This document shows positions 8,687 through 28,626 of a stretch of 64,000 nt of DNA, piece after piece. The DNA comes from Leptotrichia wadei (GTDB lineage Bacteria > Fusobacteriota > Fusobacteriia > Fusobacteriales > Leptotrichiaceae). Position numbers and translations under genes: made by a program. The stretch's first letter is position 1; every line of letters begins with the position of its first letter. The stretch spans positions 1,240,001 to 1,304,000 of the forward strand of contig NZ_AP019829.2 of assembly GCF_007990545.2 (NCBI RefSeq), written 5' to 3'. Under the pieces are notes generated by a model. That model saw nothing but the letters and a program-made list of their open reading frames with translations. It was not told the origin of the DNA and made no database searches.

Positions 8687-8966
8687 TCTTTAAAATATCT
8701 CCTTTCGGTTTATAATTTATTTTTACATACGACATTACACCCTCAGCCCCTGCCTTCACAGCCACAACTTGACATTCCTTAACAATTTCCATAAGCTCGT
8801 CAAAATCCCCTTCTATCGTCGTCTCAAATGGAGCAACATTTATTTTCAGCCCTTTACTTTTAATAAATTCAATAACTTCATCAACAACCCTTACAACTTC
8901 ATCACTTCCCACAACATTAGGTAGCACTTGAATTGCAACACTTGCATTGATTTCTTTTTTTTCCAT
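8655..8966 (-). CDS. Thiamine-binding-like protein (MTH1187/YkoF family)
   Basis: This is a 103-residue protein of the MTH1187/Thiamine_BP fold, with the pattern NASVAIQVLP at the N-terminus and the APFETTIEGDFDELMEIV segment in the middle, both typical. Family members are small ferredoxin-like oligomers, several of which bind thiamine or HMP. It is the first gene after the TPP riboswitch and overlaps the permease. It probably buffers or delivers the ligand in the cytoplasm (inference). It is cytosolic, with no signal peptide. Confidence 0.85.
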   Translation of the reverse strand: MEKKEINASVAIQVLPNVVGSDEVVRVVDEVIEFIKSKGLKINVAPFETTIEGDFDELMEIVKECQVVAVKAGAEGVMSYVKINYKPKGDILKIDEKISKYNR

Positions 8967-9043
8967 AATTTATCATCCCTTTCTTTAACTTTATATTTTA
9001 TAATAAATTTTCATTTAATAATTTTTAGTTAAAATTTTTTCAA

Positions 9044-9073
9044 ACAAAAAATCCCCTTATCACAAGGAGATTC
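9044..9073 (-). terminator. Terminator downstream of the TPP aptamer
   Basis: On the minus strand, a nine-pair stem (AATCTCCTT with AAGGGGATT, one G-U pair) is followed by TTTTTTG. It lies between the TPP aptamer and the first gene of the thiamine operon, as expected for a TPP-induced transcription terminator. Confidence 0.78.
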
Positions 9074-9151
9074 TATATTTCTATAAATTTTCTAAAATAA
9101 TTTAAAGAGATATGCAAAATAACTTTAAAATTATTTCTTAGTTTTATATAA

Positions 9152-9228
9152 AATACTCCCTCCGACAGTATTACCTGTATCAGGTTATATGGGTTTAATT
9201 CTCAGCAAAATTGCTCCCCAGTATTCTT
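9152..9228 (-). promoter_or_regulatory. TPP riboswitch (THI element)
   Basis: On the minus strand the conserved TPP aptamer parts appear in order: CTGGGGAGC, GCTGAGA, ACCC, ACCTGAT and the GGAGGGAG closing side. It is about 75 bases long, the compact form without an extended P3 arm. A terminator follows at 9044-9073 and the thiamine-type ABC operon follows that. High TPP should therefore shut off uptake. Confidence 0.95.
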
Positions 9229-9249
9229 TCATTTTTCATTTTTCTACTG

Positions 9250-9886
9250 TTATTCTGTTTTCACATCTGCAAGATCTGAATATAATTCTTTTAGAATAAT
9301 TTTTGTTTTGTCATCAATATTTACTAAATACCATTTATTTTTATCTTCAAATACCAAAGTTTTTTGATTTAATTCTAACTTTTGACCTTGAGCCAAAATT
9401 ATACTTTTTGCAGGTATAATAGCATAATTTCTTCCAGCACTTGTCTGTCCTGTCTTTACATTTTCCAAATCATATTCATATTTTTCAAATTTCATATTTT
9501 GTGTAACATCTTTTAATAGCTGTAATGTCATTTCTTTTGCCTTTTGCGAGGTTGTAGAAAGATGTTTAGCTTCCCATTCCCAAAGTTTTTCAGGTACATT
9601 TTCCATACTTGAGCTTGCATCTCCTGCCATCGCATCCTTTGAAATTTTGTCAACTTTTTTAGAAATTTCAGGCTTCATTTTACTCCACCATTCTTGTGCC
9701 AATTCATTTTGTGCCTGCTCTACATTCTTACAAATTTTTTCATCTCGCTTTTCTTTACATTTTAAAACTGTTTCTTTATAGCAATTTATCATTTTTTTTC
9801 AAATTTTCTATGCTATATTTATTTCCACAAGATGTAAAAATCATTGTTGAAACTGAAATTAGAAGTAATAATTTTATTTTTTTCAT
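9250..9886 (-). pseudogene. Small lipoprotein gene, frameshifted in a poly-A run (paralogue of 13366-13929)
   Basis: The long open frame starts at 9792 without a good start, but a separate frame from the ATG at 9886 (after an AGGA box) encodes a lipoprotein signal with lipobox FTSCG. The two frames meet at eight A bases (plus-strand T run 9792-9799); seven A would join them into one protein of about 211 residues. The body shares WW/AWxxxKPEI, NKISKD, ENVKxGxT, GRNYAIIP and FEDxNKWY with the product of 13366-13929. I do not recognise the family. It could be phase-variable, a real loss, or an assembly error at the homopolymer. Confidence 0.75.
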
Positions 9887-9945
9887 TTTTCCTCCAAAAA
9901 GTTTATTATTAATAATTATACCCTATTTTTTCATATTTTCAAAAT

Positions 9946-9992
9946 TTATTTTTTCATTAAATTATTTTCCAAAAACTTCAATTGTAGAAAAA
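9946..9992 (-). pseudogene. Remnant of the 3' end of a thiol peroxidase gene
   Basis: About 40 bases align with the last codons of tpx (13992 onward) and of the tpx fragment at 13056: the TCA(T)xAAATTATTTTCCAA block and the following TTCAAT. It occupies the same place relative to its lipoprotein gene as tpx does in the intact locus. Homology fades after about 9990. Confidence 0.55.
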
Positions 9993-10077
9993 ATAGTTAA
10001 TTTTAAATATTCTTAATTTTTTATAAAGATAGATTGTATAATAAAATACAACAAATTTAAAATAAAACAGAAGTAAC

Positions 10078-10192
10078 TGCTTCCTGAAGTGTATTAAAAT
10101 TATGGGCTATCTCTTTTAATTTCTTCTTAAGGCTAAGCCCATACTTTTTCTATTGGATTTAAATTCAGTAAATATGGCGGAAGGAATAAAGG
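10078..10192 (-). mobile_element. IS630-family transposase C-terminal remnant
   Basis: Minus-strand translation gives LPPYLLNLNPIEKVWA, the hallmark ending of IS630 DDE transposases with its catalytic Glu. A frameshift and stop follow, and then LKKKLKEIAHNFNTLQEAV in another frame. Only the last 40 or so codons remain. No inverted repeat or target duplication could be assigned. Confidence 0.7.
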
Positions 10193-10386
10193 ATATGACT
10201 ATAAACTGGAAGAGCTTACAGATGAGCTTATAATTAGAAACAAAGGAATGTATGAAGTTATCAAACTGGAAAAAGGAAAGCTTTTTTGAAGGAAAAAATA
10301 ACAAGATAGAAGCAATAAAAAGGTTGTCTTATAGGATAAAAAAATTCGATAACCTGAAAAAGCTTATTCAGCTTAGAATCTCTTAA
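10193..10386 (+). mobile_element. ISL3-like transposase C-terminal remnant
   Basis: Plus-strand translation gives EGKNNKIEAIKRLSYRIKKF followed by NLKKLIQLRIS and a stop. This resembles the C-terminus of ISL3/IS204-type transposases (VEGxNNKIKxIKRxxYGxxNF). An in-frame stop precedes it, so the copy is dead. It abuts the IS630 remnant on the opposite strand. The family assignment rests on this short motif. Confidence 0.55.
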
Positions 10387-21754: not shown

Positions 21755-22102
21755 TCAAAACGCATTTTTTAACCACTCAATATTTCCAGAATCCTTACTT
21801 ACTCCAATAATATCATACCTCACATTCCTGTCCCAATTTTTTTTCAAAAGATAAACCTGCGAACTGGCAAAAATCCTATTCTGCTTTTCCTCCGTTACCA
21901 TCTCAATCGCCGATCCAAAAAAGTCATTTCTTCGATACTTAACTTCCACAAACACAAGCGTCTGGCTACTCTTCTCAAAAAAAATCAGATCAATCTCCCC
22001 AAACCTAGTATAAAAATTACTCTCAACAAACACAAGCCCCTGCAAAATCAGATAGTCCTTTGCTATATTCTCATACTTAAACCCAACTTCCCTTTTATTC
22101 AT
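21755..22102 (-). CDS. YraN family endonuclease-like protein (UPF0102)
   Basis: This 115-residue protein shows the UPF0102 pattern: GFKYENIAKDYL, the GEIDLIFFE core and FVEVKYRR. The E-x-D...E-x-K spacing matches a restriction-endonuclease-like catalytic core. The length is normal. The family is near-universal, often next to rnhB, and its role is unsettled, perhaps in Holliday junction or DNA uptake processing. It lies 10 bases upstream of the zinc-ribbon gene; rnhB lies 4 kb upstream, separated from it by the AAA+/HNH cassette. Confidence 0.9.
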   Translation of the reverse strand: MNKREVGFKYENIAKDYLILQGLVFVESNFYTRFGEIDLIFFEKSSQTLVFVEVKYRRNDFFGSAIEMVTEEKQNRIFASSQVYLLKKNWDRNVRYDIIGVSKDSGNIEWLKNAF

Positions 22103-22309
22103 TCTAACTCACTTTTCCCCCTTTTTTGATATTATACCACAAATATCTATATTTATTCTTTTAATATAATACCAATTTTTTACTTTTTTTTCAAGACTGG
22201 AAATTCAATTAGTTTTTTGATTCTCTTAACCTAAATAATTTTAATGTTATCCTAAAATAAAATGTGTATCTTAATTTTTTAATACACATTTTTGAATTTA
22301 TATTTATTT

Positions 22310-23401
22310 TTAAAGTTTAAAATCTAAATCAGTTATTAATAACAGATCTTCTTTCGTAATATTCTTAATACTCACTATTCTTCTAGCATGATTCATTACT
22401 AAATCATCATAAATATTTCTTACCATCCTGCCATTTGAAAAATTTTCTTTTTTATTCTGCAATTCTGTTTCAAAAAAATCATTCAATTTTACTTTCGCTT
22501 TTTCTGTCAAATCATAATCATTATTTTTACACATTGATATTAATATTTCCAAAAGTTCTTTAGTATTATAGTCTTCGAATTCTATAAATGTGTTAAAACG
22601 GGACTTTAGTCCAGGATTTGAAGAAAAAAAGTTTTTCATTGGCTCAGAATACCCAGCAACAATTACTACCAAATCATTTCTATAATCCTCTAATGCTTTA
22701 GTCAATTCGGTTATGCATTCTCTTCCATAGGAATCACTTTGTTCATTTTCAGTTATACTGTAGGCTTCATCAATAAATAACACTCCACCTTTAGCTTTTT
22801 CTATAACATTTTTTACCTTTAATGCTGTTTGACCTTGATACCCTGCTATTAAATCTGTCCTTGACACTTCAATAAAATGCCCTCTTGACAATAAACCTAA
22901 TTGCTTATAGATTCTACCTATAATTCTAGCAACAGTTGTTTTTCCAGTGCCAGGATTTCCTGTAAAAGATAAATGCAATGTGCTTTTAACAGCATTTAAT
23001 CCTTCTTTTTCTCTCATCTTTTGAACTTTTTGATAAATTATCAAATCATTCACTTTAGATTTAACATTCTTCAATCCAATCAAATTATTCAATTCTTCTA
23101 ATAAATCCGTTAAGCTTCTAGCATCTTCTACTACTTCATCTAAATTACAAATCCTTTTTATTTCTAAATAACCATAATATTCAACTAAACTTTTTTTCAA
23201 AAAATTTGCTATTTCTTTTATATCTTTGGAAAATTCTTTTGAATCTACTATTTCAGCAATTTTTTTTAATAATAAAACTGTAGATTCTCTACTATTTTCT
23301 TCAACAATAGACATTCCATATTTTGTAATTTTACCGTTAGAATTAGTAACCGCATCTAGTTTAGAAGCATAATTCAAAAAATTTTCTTTATATTTACTCA
23401 T
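22310..23401 (-). CDS. CbxX/CfqX (EccA/SpoVK-like) AAA+ ATPase
   Basis: This 363-residue protein has an N-terminal helical part of about 100 residues with no recognised domain. The AAA+ module follows, with Walker A GNPGTGKT at 148-155, Walker B LFIDEA at 208-213, the sensor region VVIVAGYSEPMKNF and arginine-finger segment NPGLKSRF. This clade includes RuBisCO activase CbxX and the EccA ATPase of type VII secretion; members remodel protein partners. Its ATG follows the stop of the coiled-coil gene without a gap, so the genes are coupled. It probably acts on the two upstream products (inference). Confidence 0.9.
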   Translation of the reverse strand: MSKYKENFLNYASKLDAVTNSNGKITKYGMSIVEENSRESTVLLLKKIAEIVDSKEFSKDIKEIANFLKKSLVEYYGYLEIKRICNLDEVVEDARSLTDLLEELNNLIGLKNVKSKVNDLIIYQKVQKMREKEGLNAVKSTLHLSFTGNPGTGKTTVARIIGRIYKQLGLLSRGHFIEVSRTDLIAGYQGQTALKVKNVIEKAKGGVLFIDEAYSITENEQSDSYGRECITELTKALEDYRNDLVVIVAGYSEPMKNFFSSNPGLKSRFNTFIEFEDYNTKELLEILISMCKNNDYDLTEKAKVKLNDFFETELQNKKENFSNGRMVRNIYDDLVMNHARRIVSIKNITKEDLLLITDLDFKL

Positions 23402-24241
23402 CTATTTACTTCCCATAAAAAATAATGAAAATAATAATATTGTAATAATTCCAAAAGATATATTTGATATTAAAACCGTTCTTTTTAATTTTTTTAGTTT
23501 CAATTCTGTATCTTCATCTATTATATAATTTTCTGATTTATCTTTAGATATTTTTGTAGAATTTAACTCATCTACATTTCTCTGAATATATATTTTTACT
23601 TCTTTAATATCTTCAGAAATTGTGAGTACTTTACTTTCTAACTTTTTCAAATCATTCCACATATTATCAATATCTTTAAGATGTCTATATGAATCTATCT
23701 TAGCTTTAAATAGACTTAAACCTTCAACTACTTTTTTTATAATCTCCATATTTCTACCAATATCTTGTTGGGCAACTTGAAGTTTTTCTTGAATAAATTT
23801 TATATTTTTCTGAGCAATCTGAATTTTACCATTTACTTCTTTAATATCTTCTATTCTTTTTTCAGCTTCTATTAACCCTTTATTTGCTTTATTTATTGCT
23901 TCGTTTGATTTCATCATAGATTGTGTTATATTTTTTATATACTCATTATCTAAAGCATTAAAAGTATTATAAATTACTCCAAATTCTTTAATTATTTTAT
24001 TTTTAACATCATTAATGCCTATTAAATGATTCTGAATTTGAGAACTTAATTTATTCAACTCTTCTCCTGTAACAACATGATTACCTCCGTGAATAAAGTT
24101 CCACCACTCTTCTGACTCAACTTTTGAAAGTTTAATATCTTTCACATTTTGTTCTGAAAATACTTTTAAATTATTTTTATACTCATCAAATTTTTCTGCT
24201 ATTATTCTACTATTTGTTTCAAGCATTTCATATTTACCCAT
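23402..24241 (-). CDS. Coiled-coil protein with C-terminal membrane anchor
   Basis: This 279-residue protein belongs to no family I recognise. Residues about 20-230 are almost wholly helical with heptad-like spacing (e.g. IEDIKEVNGKIQIAQKNIKF), and an EEWWNFIHGGNHVV block near residue 45 breaks the pattern. Residues about 255-275 form one hydrophobic helix (ISFGIITILLFSLFF) ending with a few polar residues, so it would be tail-anchored with its bulk in the cytoplasm. It is 16 bases after the HNH-like gene and abuts the ATPase gene. It could be a scaffold linking the other two at the membrane (inference). Confidence 0.7.
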   Translation of the reverse strand: MGKYEMLETNSRIIAEKFDEYKNNLKVFSEQNVKDIKLSKVESEEWWNFIHGGNHVVTGEELNKLSSQIQNHLIGINDVKNKIIKEFGVIYNTFNALDNEYIKNITQSMMKSNEAINKANKGLIEAEKRIEDIKEVNGKIQIAQKNIKFIQEKLQVAQQDIGRNMEIIKKVVEGLSLFKAKIDSYRHLKDIDNMWNDLKKLESKVLTISEDIKEVKIYIQRNVDELNSTKISKDKSENYIIDEDTELKLKKLKRTVLISNISFGIITILLFSLFFMGSK

Positions 24242-24257
24242 TTTTTTTGCTCCATTT

Positions 24258-26060
24258 CTAATCTATTAAACTATTTAACAAAGAATTAATTTCATCAAAA
24301 TTTTTTTCTATTTTTTCTTGATTCTTTATTTCTTCTTCACTACTAATTATAATATTTTCTGCAATATATTTTTCAAGATTTTTTTCAGCGTTTTTCTTAT
24401 ACTCTTCTAACTCTTCTTTATAAACTTTATTCTTTTCTTCTGTCTCTCTTTCTATTTCTGCATTATATTTTGAAAGTTTTTCATGTCTATTTATAATATT
24501 CGAAGCAACTTGTCCTTTTTGATAAATTAATTTTTCTCCATTTAATTTCTGAATTTTGTATTGTGTTATTAAAACTTGATTTCCTTTATCTATTTGTTTT
24601 GAAAGAACTTCATTTTTCATTTGTTTTTCTATTATTTTTTGAATAAAGTGAATTGCTATCGCTCCTATGATTCCAGATACAACTGCTCCCATAAATATTC
24701 CTATTATATTTGCCAAACTACCAAGCAATGGTATTTCAACCAATAATATTGGTATTGAGGATAGTCCTTTTTCTATTACTTCACTTAATACTATAGCACC
24801 TGCTCCTGTTAATCCTGCTATTACAATTTTACCAGTTTCTAAAATTAAACGTCCTATTGGTTTATTTTTGTTTTCAGGACTTTTAATATAATCAATAGCA
24901 TTTTTAATAGCTTGCCAGCCTTGTTTTAATAACATCCACACTTGCTTTAAAGTACGAAAAACAGGTCCAACAATAGCCGTAGCTATTGTAGTAAATAAAA
25001 CATTTCCAGCATTTATTACGTGTGTTTTCATTTTTCCTATAAAAGAATAAATTGCTTCTTTCAAACTATCCCAAAGCATCTCAAACTTTCCTTTCGTTGT
25101 TTTAAACCATTTAACTAATTTGGTTATTATTTCTCTTATTAAATCAACCAATAATCCCATAACAACGGCTCTAAGTGCTGTACCACCAATACGAAACGCT
25201 TCTTCTTTTTGCGTTTGGATCCCTTCTTTTCTTAACCTTTCTTCTCCTTCTCTCTCCTTTTTTTCAATAAATTTTTCAGCTTTCTCATCCGCTTCTTTCC
25301 AATGCTTTGTTTTATCTCTATTATCTATTTCATCAGGTAATTTATTACTTTTCCTCTTATTTCTTTCTGAAGTTGTATATCCTTGTAGATTTTGAGGATT
25401 ATTTATTATATCTGTTAACTCTTCATTGTTATTCGCCATTTGAAGTGATGAATTTTCATACAGCTCTGCTGAAGGTCTAACATGCTCTCTTTCAGCAGCT
25501 TTAGGATTATTTTTACCATTTTCTAATTTAGTATTAGTAGGAATTTGTCTACCGTTATATATATCTACAACTGTATTAATACCTTTCTTTTTTAAATCTC
25601 CCGCTCTTTTTAGACCCTTATCCTCATCATCCATTCCTGGATTCACATATTTTTTTCTAAAATCTTTATGAGACATATTTTTATATCTATCATAATTCTG
25701 TTCTAATTTCTTTTTACTTATATAATTATGTTTAGCTATTTTTCCTTTTTCAAAATTTTCAGGAGTTTGGATGTGTGCTTCACTTCTTAAATCTAATTTT
25801 AAATCACCATTTTCCTTTACGAAGTCTTCTCCTGCTACAATTGCAATTTGATTATTAACCTGTTCCCAAATCACATCCTCTACAACTTTACCCAAATTAT
25901 CAGGATCTCCTATTTGTTTCTGATTTTCTTTTAAAATTTCAAGTTCTGATAGTTCTAATTTTAACTGACTTTGTAATTTTTCCTCTAATTCATCAAAATC
26001 AAAAGAATCCTCAAAGTTTTCTTCACTATTTAGTGCAAATGCAAATTCTTTACTGTCCAT
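24258..26060 (-). CDS. Large membrane protein with HNH-nuclease-like N-terminal region
   Basis: This 600-residue protein begins with an acidic helical segment. Around residues 190-242 the pattern EREHVRPSAEL, an Asn-rich NNNEEL, INNPQNLQ and SERNKRKSN resembles an HNH/treble-clef nuclease core (H193 as catalytic His, N224-region and N/K at 234-241 as ligands), though metal ligands are not certain. A charged helix follows, then hydrophobic stretches near 291-316, 352-378 and 404-474 (several helices rich in Gly/Ala/Ile), then a long coiled coil to the end. It is first in the cassette, with an ATG at 26060. A membrane-tethered nuclease is an inference. Confidence 0.6.
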   Translation of the reverse strand: MDSKEFAFALNSEENFEDSFDFDELEEKLQSQLKLELSELEILKENQKQIGDPDNLGKVVEDVIWEQVNNQIAIVAGEDFVKENGDLKLDLRSEAHIQTPENFEKGKIAKHNYISKKKLEQNYDRYKNMSHKDFRKKYVNPGMDDEDKGLKRAGDLKKKGINTVVDIYNGRQIPTNTKLENGKNNPKAAEREHVRPSAELYENSSLQMANNNEELTDIINNPQNLQGYTTSERNKRKSNKLPDEIDNRDKTKHWKEADEKAEKFIEKKEREGEERLRKEGIQTQKEEAFRIGGTALRAVVMGLLVDLIREIITKLVKWFKTTKGKFEMLWDSLKEAIYSFIGKMKTHVINAGNVLFTTIATAIVGPVFRTLKQVWMLLKQGWQAIKNAIDYIKSPENKNKPIGRLILETGKIVIAGLTGAGAIVLSEVIEKGLSSIPILLVEIPLLGSLANIIGIFMGAVVSGIIGAIAIHFIQKIIEKQMKNEVLSKQIDKGNQVLITQYKIQKLNGEKLIYQKGQVASNIINRHEKLSKYNAEIERETEEKNKVYKEELEEYKKNAEKNLEKYIAENIIISSEEEIKNQEKIEKNFDEINSLLNSLID

Positions 26061-26227
26061 TGTTTTCTCCCTTTTTAATCATAATTCAATAAAAAATATT
26101 TTTTTTCATTTATACGCTTTATTATTTTATCATATTATTCTATAAAATCAAGTATTTGTTATAATTATCTTTGCAATTTCTTTAAAATACTATTTTTTAT
26201 AAAGGGATTATAATATTTTATATATTT

Positions 26228-26863
26228 TTAATTTTTTACTCCCAATATCTTCTTCAAAAACGTCTTCCTATGATACTTACAAGCCCCTTTTTCAAGTAAA
26301 ATCTCCCTATGTTTCTTAGTTCCATACCCCTTATGTTTCTCAAATTCGTACTCAGGAAATTCTTTTGCTATTTCACAAAGCATTCTGTCCCTTGTAACCT
26401 TTGCCACAATCGAAGCTGTCGCAATTGCAAGAGATTTACCATCTCCTTTCACAATGCACTCCTGCTTTCCTTCATACTCTCGAATCAAATGATTACCATC
26501 AACTAAAACTATGTCAAATGCTGATTTTTCAGCCACTTGATTAATCGCTCGACGCATTGCTAGAAATGTTGCATTCAAAATATTCATCTCATCAATTTCC
26601 TTTTCTGACGCAATCCCAATTCCCACAATACAATTTTTTTCTATTGCCTCAAACAATCTCTCCCTTTTCTTTTCAGCCAATTTCTTTGAATCATTAATTT
26701 CCTGCAATTCTGGAAAATCCTGATTTACAATAACTGCCCCAGCCACGACTGGCCCAGCCAAAGGCCCTCTCCCAGCCTCATCAACCCCAACAACAATTTT
26801 ATTATATTTTTTATCAAATTCTAGTAGTTCATTTTTTTTATTTCCTAATTTTTTTTCATCCAT
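26228..26863 (-). CDS. rnhB: Ribonuclease HII
   Basis: This 211-residue protein has the RNase HII entry motif GVDEAGRGPLAGPVVAGAV with the catalytic Asp-Glu pair near residues 24-25, then NDSKKL, the third Asp in VLVDGN and the fourth near AKVTRDR. It removes ribonucleotides and RNA primers from DNA. It stands upstream of the cassette at 22310-26060 on the same strand with a 167-base gap, so the cassette appears to be inserted between rnhB and yraN, which are often neighbours. Confidence 0.95.
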   Translation of the reverse strand: MDEKKLGNKKNELLEFDKKYNKIVVGVDEAGRGPLAGPVVAGAVIVNQDFPELQEINDSKKLAEKKRERLFEAIEKNCIVGIGIASEKEIDEMNILNATFLAMRRAINQVAEKSAFDIVLVDGNHLIREYEGKQECIVKGDGKSLAIATASIVAKVTRDRMLCEIAKEFPEYEFEKHKGYGTKKHREILLEKGACKYHRKTFLKKILGVKN

Positions 26864-27957: not shown

Positions 27958-28626
27958 TTATTCCCTTTTAAAATTTATCCCGTCAATACAATGATTATAA
28001 ATTAATTCCCTAATTTCATCCATATTATTAGTTTCATAAAACTTCACAAGCAATTCCAAAAATTTCTCCTGATATTTTATAGGAACTGAAATAATCCCTG
28101 CACCATTTTGAATCATCACCTGATTTGCCGCCATCATGCTTGTCCTTTTATTTCCATCATAAAAAAGCTGGCTTCTCATTAAATATAGCATTAAATTTAT
28201 TGCTTTTTCTGTTGCAGAATTTCCACTTTCTAAAATCTTGTTCAAACTATCATTCACTTTTTCTTTATCAGGAATTTCAGGCTTCCAATCTGTTCCACCC
28301 ATACTGACATCAGAAAATCTCAATTGTCCTGGGAAAGGATTTACATTTGCCTCTCCAATAAGTTGATTTATTTTACAGATATAATTTAAATCAACTGGAT
28401 ATTCAATATTTTCCAAAATAAATTCCCACGAATGTTTCAAATTAACAATGGCATTTATATCCTTAACTTTCATATTTTGAATTCCCAGCCCTTGAAAAAT
28501 CGTTTCAGTCTGAGGATAAGTCACAGCTATTCCTTCCAAATTTGCTGATTTCCAAATAGAATCTACTATATTCCTTTTTGCAACAAAAATATTTTCCTCT
28601 AATGTCATTTTATACTTGTCTTCCAT
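27958..28626 (-). CDS. Fic-fold protein lacking the catalytic histidine
   Basis: This 222-residue protein has the Fic helix bundle and anion-hole motif FYDGNKRT at residues 155-162. The position of the catalytic His (H in HPFxDGN) is Gln153 (MRSQLFYDGNKRT). In this DGNKRT subgroup, known mostly from Firmicutes-like genomes, the altered motif recurs, so this may be a stable variant and not decay. It probably no longer AMPylates by the usual mechanism. It is 37 bases after the HD-domain gene on the same strand. Confidence 0.85.
   Translation of the reverse strand: MEDKYKMTLEENIFVAKRNIVDSIWKSANLEGIAVTYPQTETIFQGLGIQNMKVKDINAIVNLKHSWEFILENIEYPVDLNYICKINQLIGEANVNPFPGQLRFSDVSMGGTDWKPEIPDKEKVNDSLNKILESGNSATEKAINLMLYLMRSQLFYDGNKRTSMMAANQVMIQNGAGIISVPIKYQEKFLELLVKFYETNNMDEIRELIYNHCIDGINFKRE

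Follow-up and report, generated by a model that had tools for sequence, protein, structure and literature searches.

A stretch of 64,000 nucleotides from the genome of Leptotrichia wadei (contig NZ_AP019829.2, positions 1,240,001 to 1,304,000 of the forward strand; hereafter the window, numbered from its first letter) contains, between rnhB and yraN, a cassette of three co-oriented open reading frames (ORFs) on the minus strand. ORF coordinates agree with the tight packing described in the initial annotation, the intergenic gaps being 16 and 0 bases. The features of the cassette are:

24258..26060, minus strand: ORF, predicted HNH membrane protein, 600 amino acids
25340..25493, minus strand: HNH signature region, residues 190-239 (EREHVRPSAEL ... 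NLQ ... NKRKSN)
23402..24241, minus strand: ORF, coiled-coil protein, 279 amino acids
22310..23401, minus strand: ORF, AAA+ ATPase assigned to the SpoVK/CbbX/EccA clade, 363 amino acids

The search for relatives of the HNH protein covered Fusobacteriota and the orders to which Lysinibacillus, Agathobacter and Lactococcus belong, together with GTDB contigs, plasmids, phages and viral contigs; by profile score the relatives split into a group A (at least 292 bits) and a group B (about 20-130 bits). Genes for the coiled-coil protein and the AAA+ ATPase come directly after the HNH gene, in the same orientation, in all 21 group A loci with visible neighbours, the window included; in group B these partners are never present. 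Contig ends truncate two more group A copies (L032/L089 and L057); the genome of L032 has the ATPase on a different contig. The triplet occurs in Fusobacteriota, on Lactococcus plasmids, in Lactobacillales, Lachnospirales and Erysipelotrichaceae, and in Lysinibacillus and its relatives. Its distribution is patchy, with about 1-3% of the genomes positive in each group searched.

The reverse search gave the same picture. Among 395 Lactobacillales genomes, the HNH protein (at least 292 bits) and the ATPase (at least 458 bits) were found in the identical 10 genomes, the next-best ATPase after the cassette type scoring 337 bits. Of 98 Fusobacteriota genomes, 3 have the HNH protein by profile search; exactly these 3 have the coiled-coil protein as well, and they are the ones, among the 60 searched for it, that encode the cassette ATPase. 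Co-occurrence, proposed initially as a check across Fusobacteriota and in defence islands, was found to hold beyond this phylum. The three proteins have correlated pairwise distances (r of 0.68, 0.69 and 0.76; none of 1000 permutations was as high); shared ancestry of the hosts explains part of this correlation, yet the group spans two phyla and plasmids. Since the triplet recurs in 21 loci and the distances of its proteins correlate, its composition is not due to chance, and an obligate coupling of the three genes is supported.

The first protein is composed of an N-terminal helical region, the HNH region (about residues 165-242), a central hydrophobic part (about 290-470) and a coiled-coil C-terminal tail, containing the motifs RHEKL and FDEINSLLNSL. 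In the window copy the signature is made of EREHVRPSAEL (residues 190-200), NLQ (224-226) and NKRKSN (234-239), from which E192-H193, N224, N234 and K237 are the domain residues. The consensus of groups A and B together reads roughly D-x-Y(TGK) ... DH[VTI][VI]SA.EI ... A[NT]...NL ... N.SK, with DH-N-NxxK as the family-wide signature, and in a profile of 11 sequences from the wider family the D, H, A, N and N positions are invariant. When this profile was compared by hhalign with HNH domains of Cas9, extracted at PF13395 matches, a probability of 92% (E 5e-7) was obtained, with DH paired to DH, N to N and NxxK to NxxK; a control comparison with the ATPase profile gave 0.2%. Of 17 aligned group A proteins, 16 retain the His, and every one retains the first Asn and the NxxK pair. 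Assignment to the HNH superfamily comes mainly from group B and reaches group A by homology, because triplet nucleases from Lysinibacillus (L033, E 2e-16) and from L056 (E 4.5e-14) match the PADLOC model PDC-M40B. Altogether, the profile comparisons support the presence of a domain of the HNH superfamily in the first protein. A PDB sequence search with the HNH profile matched no HNH structure. The same motif stands at the C-terminus of proteins resembling toxins of the type VII secretion system (T7SS) in L068 and L069. In the Lactococcus plasmid NZ_CP065734.1 the HNH membrane gene (8713-10368, L025) carries the annotation of a cation diffusion facilitator transporter, which seems to be an error.

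Hydropathy analysis of the same product identified four or five candidate membrane stretches, at about residues 290-308, 348-366, 406-424, 423-441 and 452-470, in agreement with the several membrane segments noted initially. Only the last of these, 452-470, is strong in the window copy, as it also is in nearly all relatives. The strongest conserved hydrophobic block, IPLLGSLANIIGIFMGAVVSGIIGAIAI, is rich in Gly and Ala, and its conservation is above that of the HNH region. Matches of the hydrophobic region to PHROG tape-measure families (E 0.01-0.4) were rejected as compositional. Some versions of the cassette also encode a small membrane protein, absent from that of the window, which has a C-terminal tail in common with the nuclease (E 8e-9 to 4e-5). 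In the group B locus L058 the nuclease tail is shared with a partner of a different type, PDC-M09B (E 1e-12), and a tail common to effector and partner is thus a recurring feature.

The second protein is, as initially described, a coiled coil with a single C-terminal membrane helix, placed by hydropathy at residues 256-274; such a helix is present in all relatives. Their N-terminal part contains a conserved block, HxVTGxELN ... IYNTFEALDKEYI (consensus IYNTFxALDxEYI), and their length ranges from 186 to 546 amino acids. One HLKDIDNMW unit is found in the window copy. In the coiled-coil protein of L033 (11741-13066) the corresponding HLxDIDxxW unit returns every 54 residues, at positions 142, 196, 250, 304 and 358, and in that of L029 (2485-4122) at multiples of 54 residues, the number of repeats differing between species. 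Because of these repeats and of the variation in length, the protein is suggested to be a length-variable stalk. Matches to LmuB, JetC and ZorA were rejected as coiled-coil noise, as were those of cassette proteins to COG6, MscL, MakB and similar families, attributed to coiled coils or hydrophobicity.

The third protein contains an N-terminal region of its own, of about 95 residues, followed by an AAA core (PF00004, 5.7e-19) and AAA_lid_6 (PF17866, 1.6e-16); no membrane stretch was detected by hydropathy. Its Walker motifs are complete, as initially reported: Walker A (GNPGTGKTT, 148-156), Walker B (FIDEAY, 209-214) and Arg268 are intact, and a pore-loop-type motif, YQGQTA, lies at 188-193. 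Pore-loop-type and Walker residues are conserved across cassette ATPases. The best NCBIfam models are spore_V_K, cbbX_cfxQ and T7SS_EccA, all scoring below their curated cut-offs (295.8 against 422.95, 250.9 against 459.25 and 222.3 against 466.65 bits, respectively), and the nearest solved structures, by PDB sequence search, are CbbX (3zuh) and EccA1 (9lur). The description as an EccA/CbbX-type ATPase stands therefore as far as clade membership goes, on the AAA and AAA_lid_6 domains and the PDB matches, and fails at the cut-offs for CbbX and EccA: judged from these scores, the protein is a member of the SpoVK/CbbX/EccA clade, yet none of the three proper. Members of this clade are dedicated chaperones with narrow targets and no peptidase partners (PMC10659427). 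Lactobacillales also encode separate SpoVK-like ATPases, in open frames of 457-470 amino acids scoring 315-337 bits (G757:C1:384725-385711; G873:C15:134715-135665; G819:C1:1103423-1104373; G748:C1:770523-771515).

The surroundings of the cassette in the window are as follows:

26228-26863: rnhB, flanking the cassette
26061..26227, minus strand: cassette upstream region, with a GGGAG ribosome-binding site
26151-26124, minus strand: weak promoter-like match within the upstream region, TTGATT-16-TAAAAT, with an extended -10
about 22257..22295, minus strand: inverted repeat AAAATGTGTAT/ATACACATTTT followed by T-rich sequence, past the ATPase stop (found by eye, coordinates approximate)
21755-22102: yraN, flanking the cassette

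Promoter-like matches in the AT-rich upstream region are not above chance. The inverted repeat AAAATGTGTAT/ATACACATTTT, not reported by the consensus scan, is a possible terminator.

Of 12 other species in the genus, only the sister species G002 has the cassette, at the same site. It is absent from the congener G007, in which the spacing between rnhB and yraN is about 250 bases; an alignment to the joined G007 flanks locates the additional DNA past the 3' end of rnhB and short of a conserved TTTCCAGTCTTGAAAAA that lies upstream of yraN. Insertion as a unit, proposed from the gene order alone, finds support in this genome, where rnhB and yraN adjoin without the cassette. Other congeners carry different small genes at the site, and in G010 (L109) it is occupied by a 6.6-kb set encoding VgrG-like (Phage_GPD), TPR and DUF4280 proteins. 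The rnhB-yraN site is variable in the genus, and the G010 set suggests that it gathers conflict cassettes. A Fic/DOC-family gene lies two genes upstream of rnhB (window positions 27958-28626), and the same gene is found in G002.

Mobility is evident elsewhere. Two Lactococcus plasmids, out of 72,556 plasmid records, carry the cassette, and in L032 and L084 it belongs to integrase-bearing islands adjoining rpsI. The version on the Lactococcus plasmids comprises four genes; the Lactococcus proteins have the accessions WP_153984584.1-WP_153984587.1. No relative was found in INPHARED phages or in four IMG/VR scans; for this reason the cassette is not, as far as tested, a phage gene. In several Lactobacillales loci (L079-L083), as in the window, it lies between housekeeping genes. 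Within about 10 kb of group A cassettes, known or candidate defence genes were identified at seven loci:

L033: TmtA, TIR/SEFIR, Mrr-type PDC-S02 and PDC-M26A
L070: CD-NTase, E2, 4TM effector and AbiLi
L078: AbiEi/AbiEii
L077: PDC-S11
L071: PDC-S05
L026: type I restriction
L025: PDC-M33C

WYL regulators are encoded directly upstream of the cassette in L071 and L072, and that of L071 matches CRISPR-associated WYL models.

The reading to which we assign a probability of roughly 0.6 is that the cassette is an uncharacterised anti-phage or anti-mobile-element system, defending by means of a membrane nuclease. A membrane-tethered nuclease, held by a scaffold and triggered by the ATPase, had been proposed at the outset; the HNH domain, the membrane segments, the coupling of the genes, the clade of the ATPase and the defence-type context of relatives all agree with it. 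The 600-residue protein would be a nuclease of HNH fold, tethered at the cytoplasmic membrane by the central hydrophobic helix bundle. The tail-anchored coiled-coil protein may provide a membrane-bound scaffold or antenna. The SpoVK/CbbX-type AAA+ protein would be a dedicated remodeller, either keeping the nuclease inactive or activating it upon an infection sensed at the membrane; we infer such a role of activator or holder of the neighbouring nuclease because the clade is one of dedicated chaperones with narrow targets. CbbX captures the tail of the RuBisCO large subunit. By analogy, the cassette ATPase might grip the C-terminal tail common to the nuclease and the small membrane protein. Once activated, the nuclease would cut DNA entering, or replicating at, the membrane, and tethering would spare the nucleoid, as modelled on SNIPE and Zorya; phage would be the target, and tethering a form of self-protection. 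A more detailed version, put forward tentatively, is that of a new immune complex, in which a SpoVK/CbbX-type AAA+ hexamer works as an activase pulling the shared tail of the tethered HNH nuclease, while the coiled coil sets its reach.

Several observations weigh against a membrane-nuclease defence system. No nuclease activity or phage phenotype is known. A profile built from group A only pairs the same columns with Cas9 HNH, with a weak score (probability 4%, E 0.01). The window and sister-species copies have Glu192 in place of the Asp of nearly all relatives; the loop that precedes their His is longer, and their two Asn are one residue further apart. In L077 the HNH His is replaced by Glu, the nuclease genes of L028 and L078 are interrupted, and the L028 ATPase shows a change of the Walker B Asp to Ala. 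AlphaFold2 models were of low confidence, both for the full window protein (6 sequences), with a mean predicted local distance difference test (pLDDT) score of 51 and values below 50 throughout the HNH region, and for the isolated HNH domain of a relative (mean pLDDT 54). The window copy lies outside any defence island, an adjacent WYL gene is found in only 2 of the 21 triplet loci, and the defence neighbours of relatives, having been counted without a background rate, are no more than suggestive of defence. Given Glu192, the loop and insertion changes and the degraded or interrupted relatives, nuclease activity of the window copy is probable, not certain. The defects in L028, L077 and L078, including the Walker B change, hint at a cost of carriage.

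The alternative that survives best, though unlikely, is an abortive-infection membrane effector, whose hydrophobic region would act as a pore or depolariser once released by the ATPase, with the HNH domain as nucleic-acid sensor or secondary effector. It would account for a Gly/Ala-rich block more conserved than the HNH region, for the retention of the membrane part in L077, where the HNH motif is degraded, and for the Gly/Ala-rich partner PDC-M09A retained by relatives lacking the ATPase. What it hardly explains, without catalysis, is the retention of DH, N and N..K by almost every copy, in two architectures and several phyla. A function in the cell envelope or in stress, with the membrane complex served by a SpoVK-like chaperone and the HNH domain left as a structural or nucleic-acid-binding relic, is improbable: envelope enzymes are indeed the targets of SpoVK and EccA (PMC10659427), and the L079-L083 and window copies sit between housekeeping genes, but presence in about 1-3% of genomes, plasmids, integrase-bearing islands, defence neighbours and WYL regulators all point elsewhere. 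Equally small is the chance that the cassette is already among the seven lactococcal plasmid systems named in 2024 (Rhea, Aristaios, Kamadhenu and others), found by a screen of lactococcal plasmids as cited in PMC13335696, a matter of naming and not of mechanism; two Lactococcus plasmids do carry the cassette, but these are only 2 of the 72,556 records. Least probable of all is a contact-dependent or T7SS-secreted toxin, with a polymorphic HNH toxin, an EccA-like chaperone and a coiled-coil adaptor, since, despite the motif ending L068 and L069, the inclusion of EccA in the ATPase clade and the VgrG-like and DUF4280 set at the congener's site, the HNH domain is internal, with some 350 conserved residues, membrane segments among them, C-terminal to it, and no neighbour of the triplet was recognised as an EssC-type ATPase or a constant immunity gene.

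Membrane nucleases striking phage DNA at entry have been described recently, and how the host chromosome is spared is an open question. In the defence reading, a nuclease inseparable from its own AAA+ protein, in at least two phyla and on Lactococcus plasmids, would lend itself to testing whether a nuclease at the membrane is controlled by an ATP-driven partner. If correct, it would also give a function to a nuclease superfamily listed only as a candidate and reaching Enterobacteriaceae, and would bring immunity among the roles of the SpoVK/CbbX/EccA clade, for which the literature searched gives no earlier immune role.

The cassette was compared with known systems. The initial statement that no described system has this composition is roughly right, as the triplet is absent from PADLOC as a system; it needs correction for the nuclease family, which profile matches place in a distant relationship with PADLOC's uncharacterised candidate PDC-M40B. 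The window HNH protein itself has no match in PADLOC, and the coiled-coil and AAA+ proteins of the triplet match none of the PDC-M09A, PDC-M09B and PDC-M40A models. WYL regulators stand beside both the triplet and the PDC-M40/PDC-M09 loci; the latter differ in lacking the coiled coil and the AAA+ protein and in carrying PDC-M09A/B, a Cys-cluster protein or a Ubiq_cyt_C_chap-like protein. Group B (L058-L067, L073-L076, L086-L088 and L126), some of whose loci also have WYL neighbours, reaches Enterobacteriaceae plasmids and G001, a congener of the window species; a member in Citrobacter lies on a stretch of plasmid that also encodes AlpA and YfjI. In a literature search, whose coverage did not extend to the 2024 lactococcal systems, no report of the triplet was found, none joining HNH with CbbX and phage, and none mentioning PDC-M40 or PDC-M09.

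With SpoVK, CbbX and EccA the cassette ATPase shares the AAA+ and lid domains and the AGY sensor-1 signature described for the clade (PMC10659427); it differs in its N-terminal region and in its location in a nuclease operon. Ietas systems likewise combine a defence AAA+ protein with a partner enzyme, and the AAA core of the cassette ATPase gives a weak match to the IetA models (E 4e-9). The similarity is confined to that core, and the partner of IetA is a protease, that of the cassette ATPase an HNH membrane protein. CoCoNuTs, whose extended loci include a SpoVK family member, were rejected, as no McrB/CnuB or VWA genes were seen beside the triplet. Among triplet neighbours, read by eye and partly scanned, no WXG100 substrate or EssC/EccC ATPase of type VII secretion was recognised.

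The closest functional parallels are two membrane-based systems. SNIPE (PD-lambda-1) is a membrane-anchored nuclease, proposed to spare host DNA through its tethering (PMC13190303, PMC12904381); the cassette would share a nuclease of this placement, predicted from its domains. SNIPE is a single protein, joining GIY-YIG and DUF4041 to one N-terminal membrane helix, with no ATPase, and Pfam searches of the cassette proteins gave no GIY-YIG or DUF4041 match. Zorya is a membrane complex with a nuclease active at the injection site (PMC12904381), which differs in its proton-driven ZorAB motor and separate ZorC and ZorD effectors; no MotA/ExbB or OmpA-like match was obtained in the same searches, the only matches to ZorA being weak coiled-coil ones of a relative. 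SNIPE and Zorya indicate that nucleases placed at the membrane can defend during injection, and by analogy the cassette would act in a similar way, while belonging to neither.

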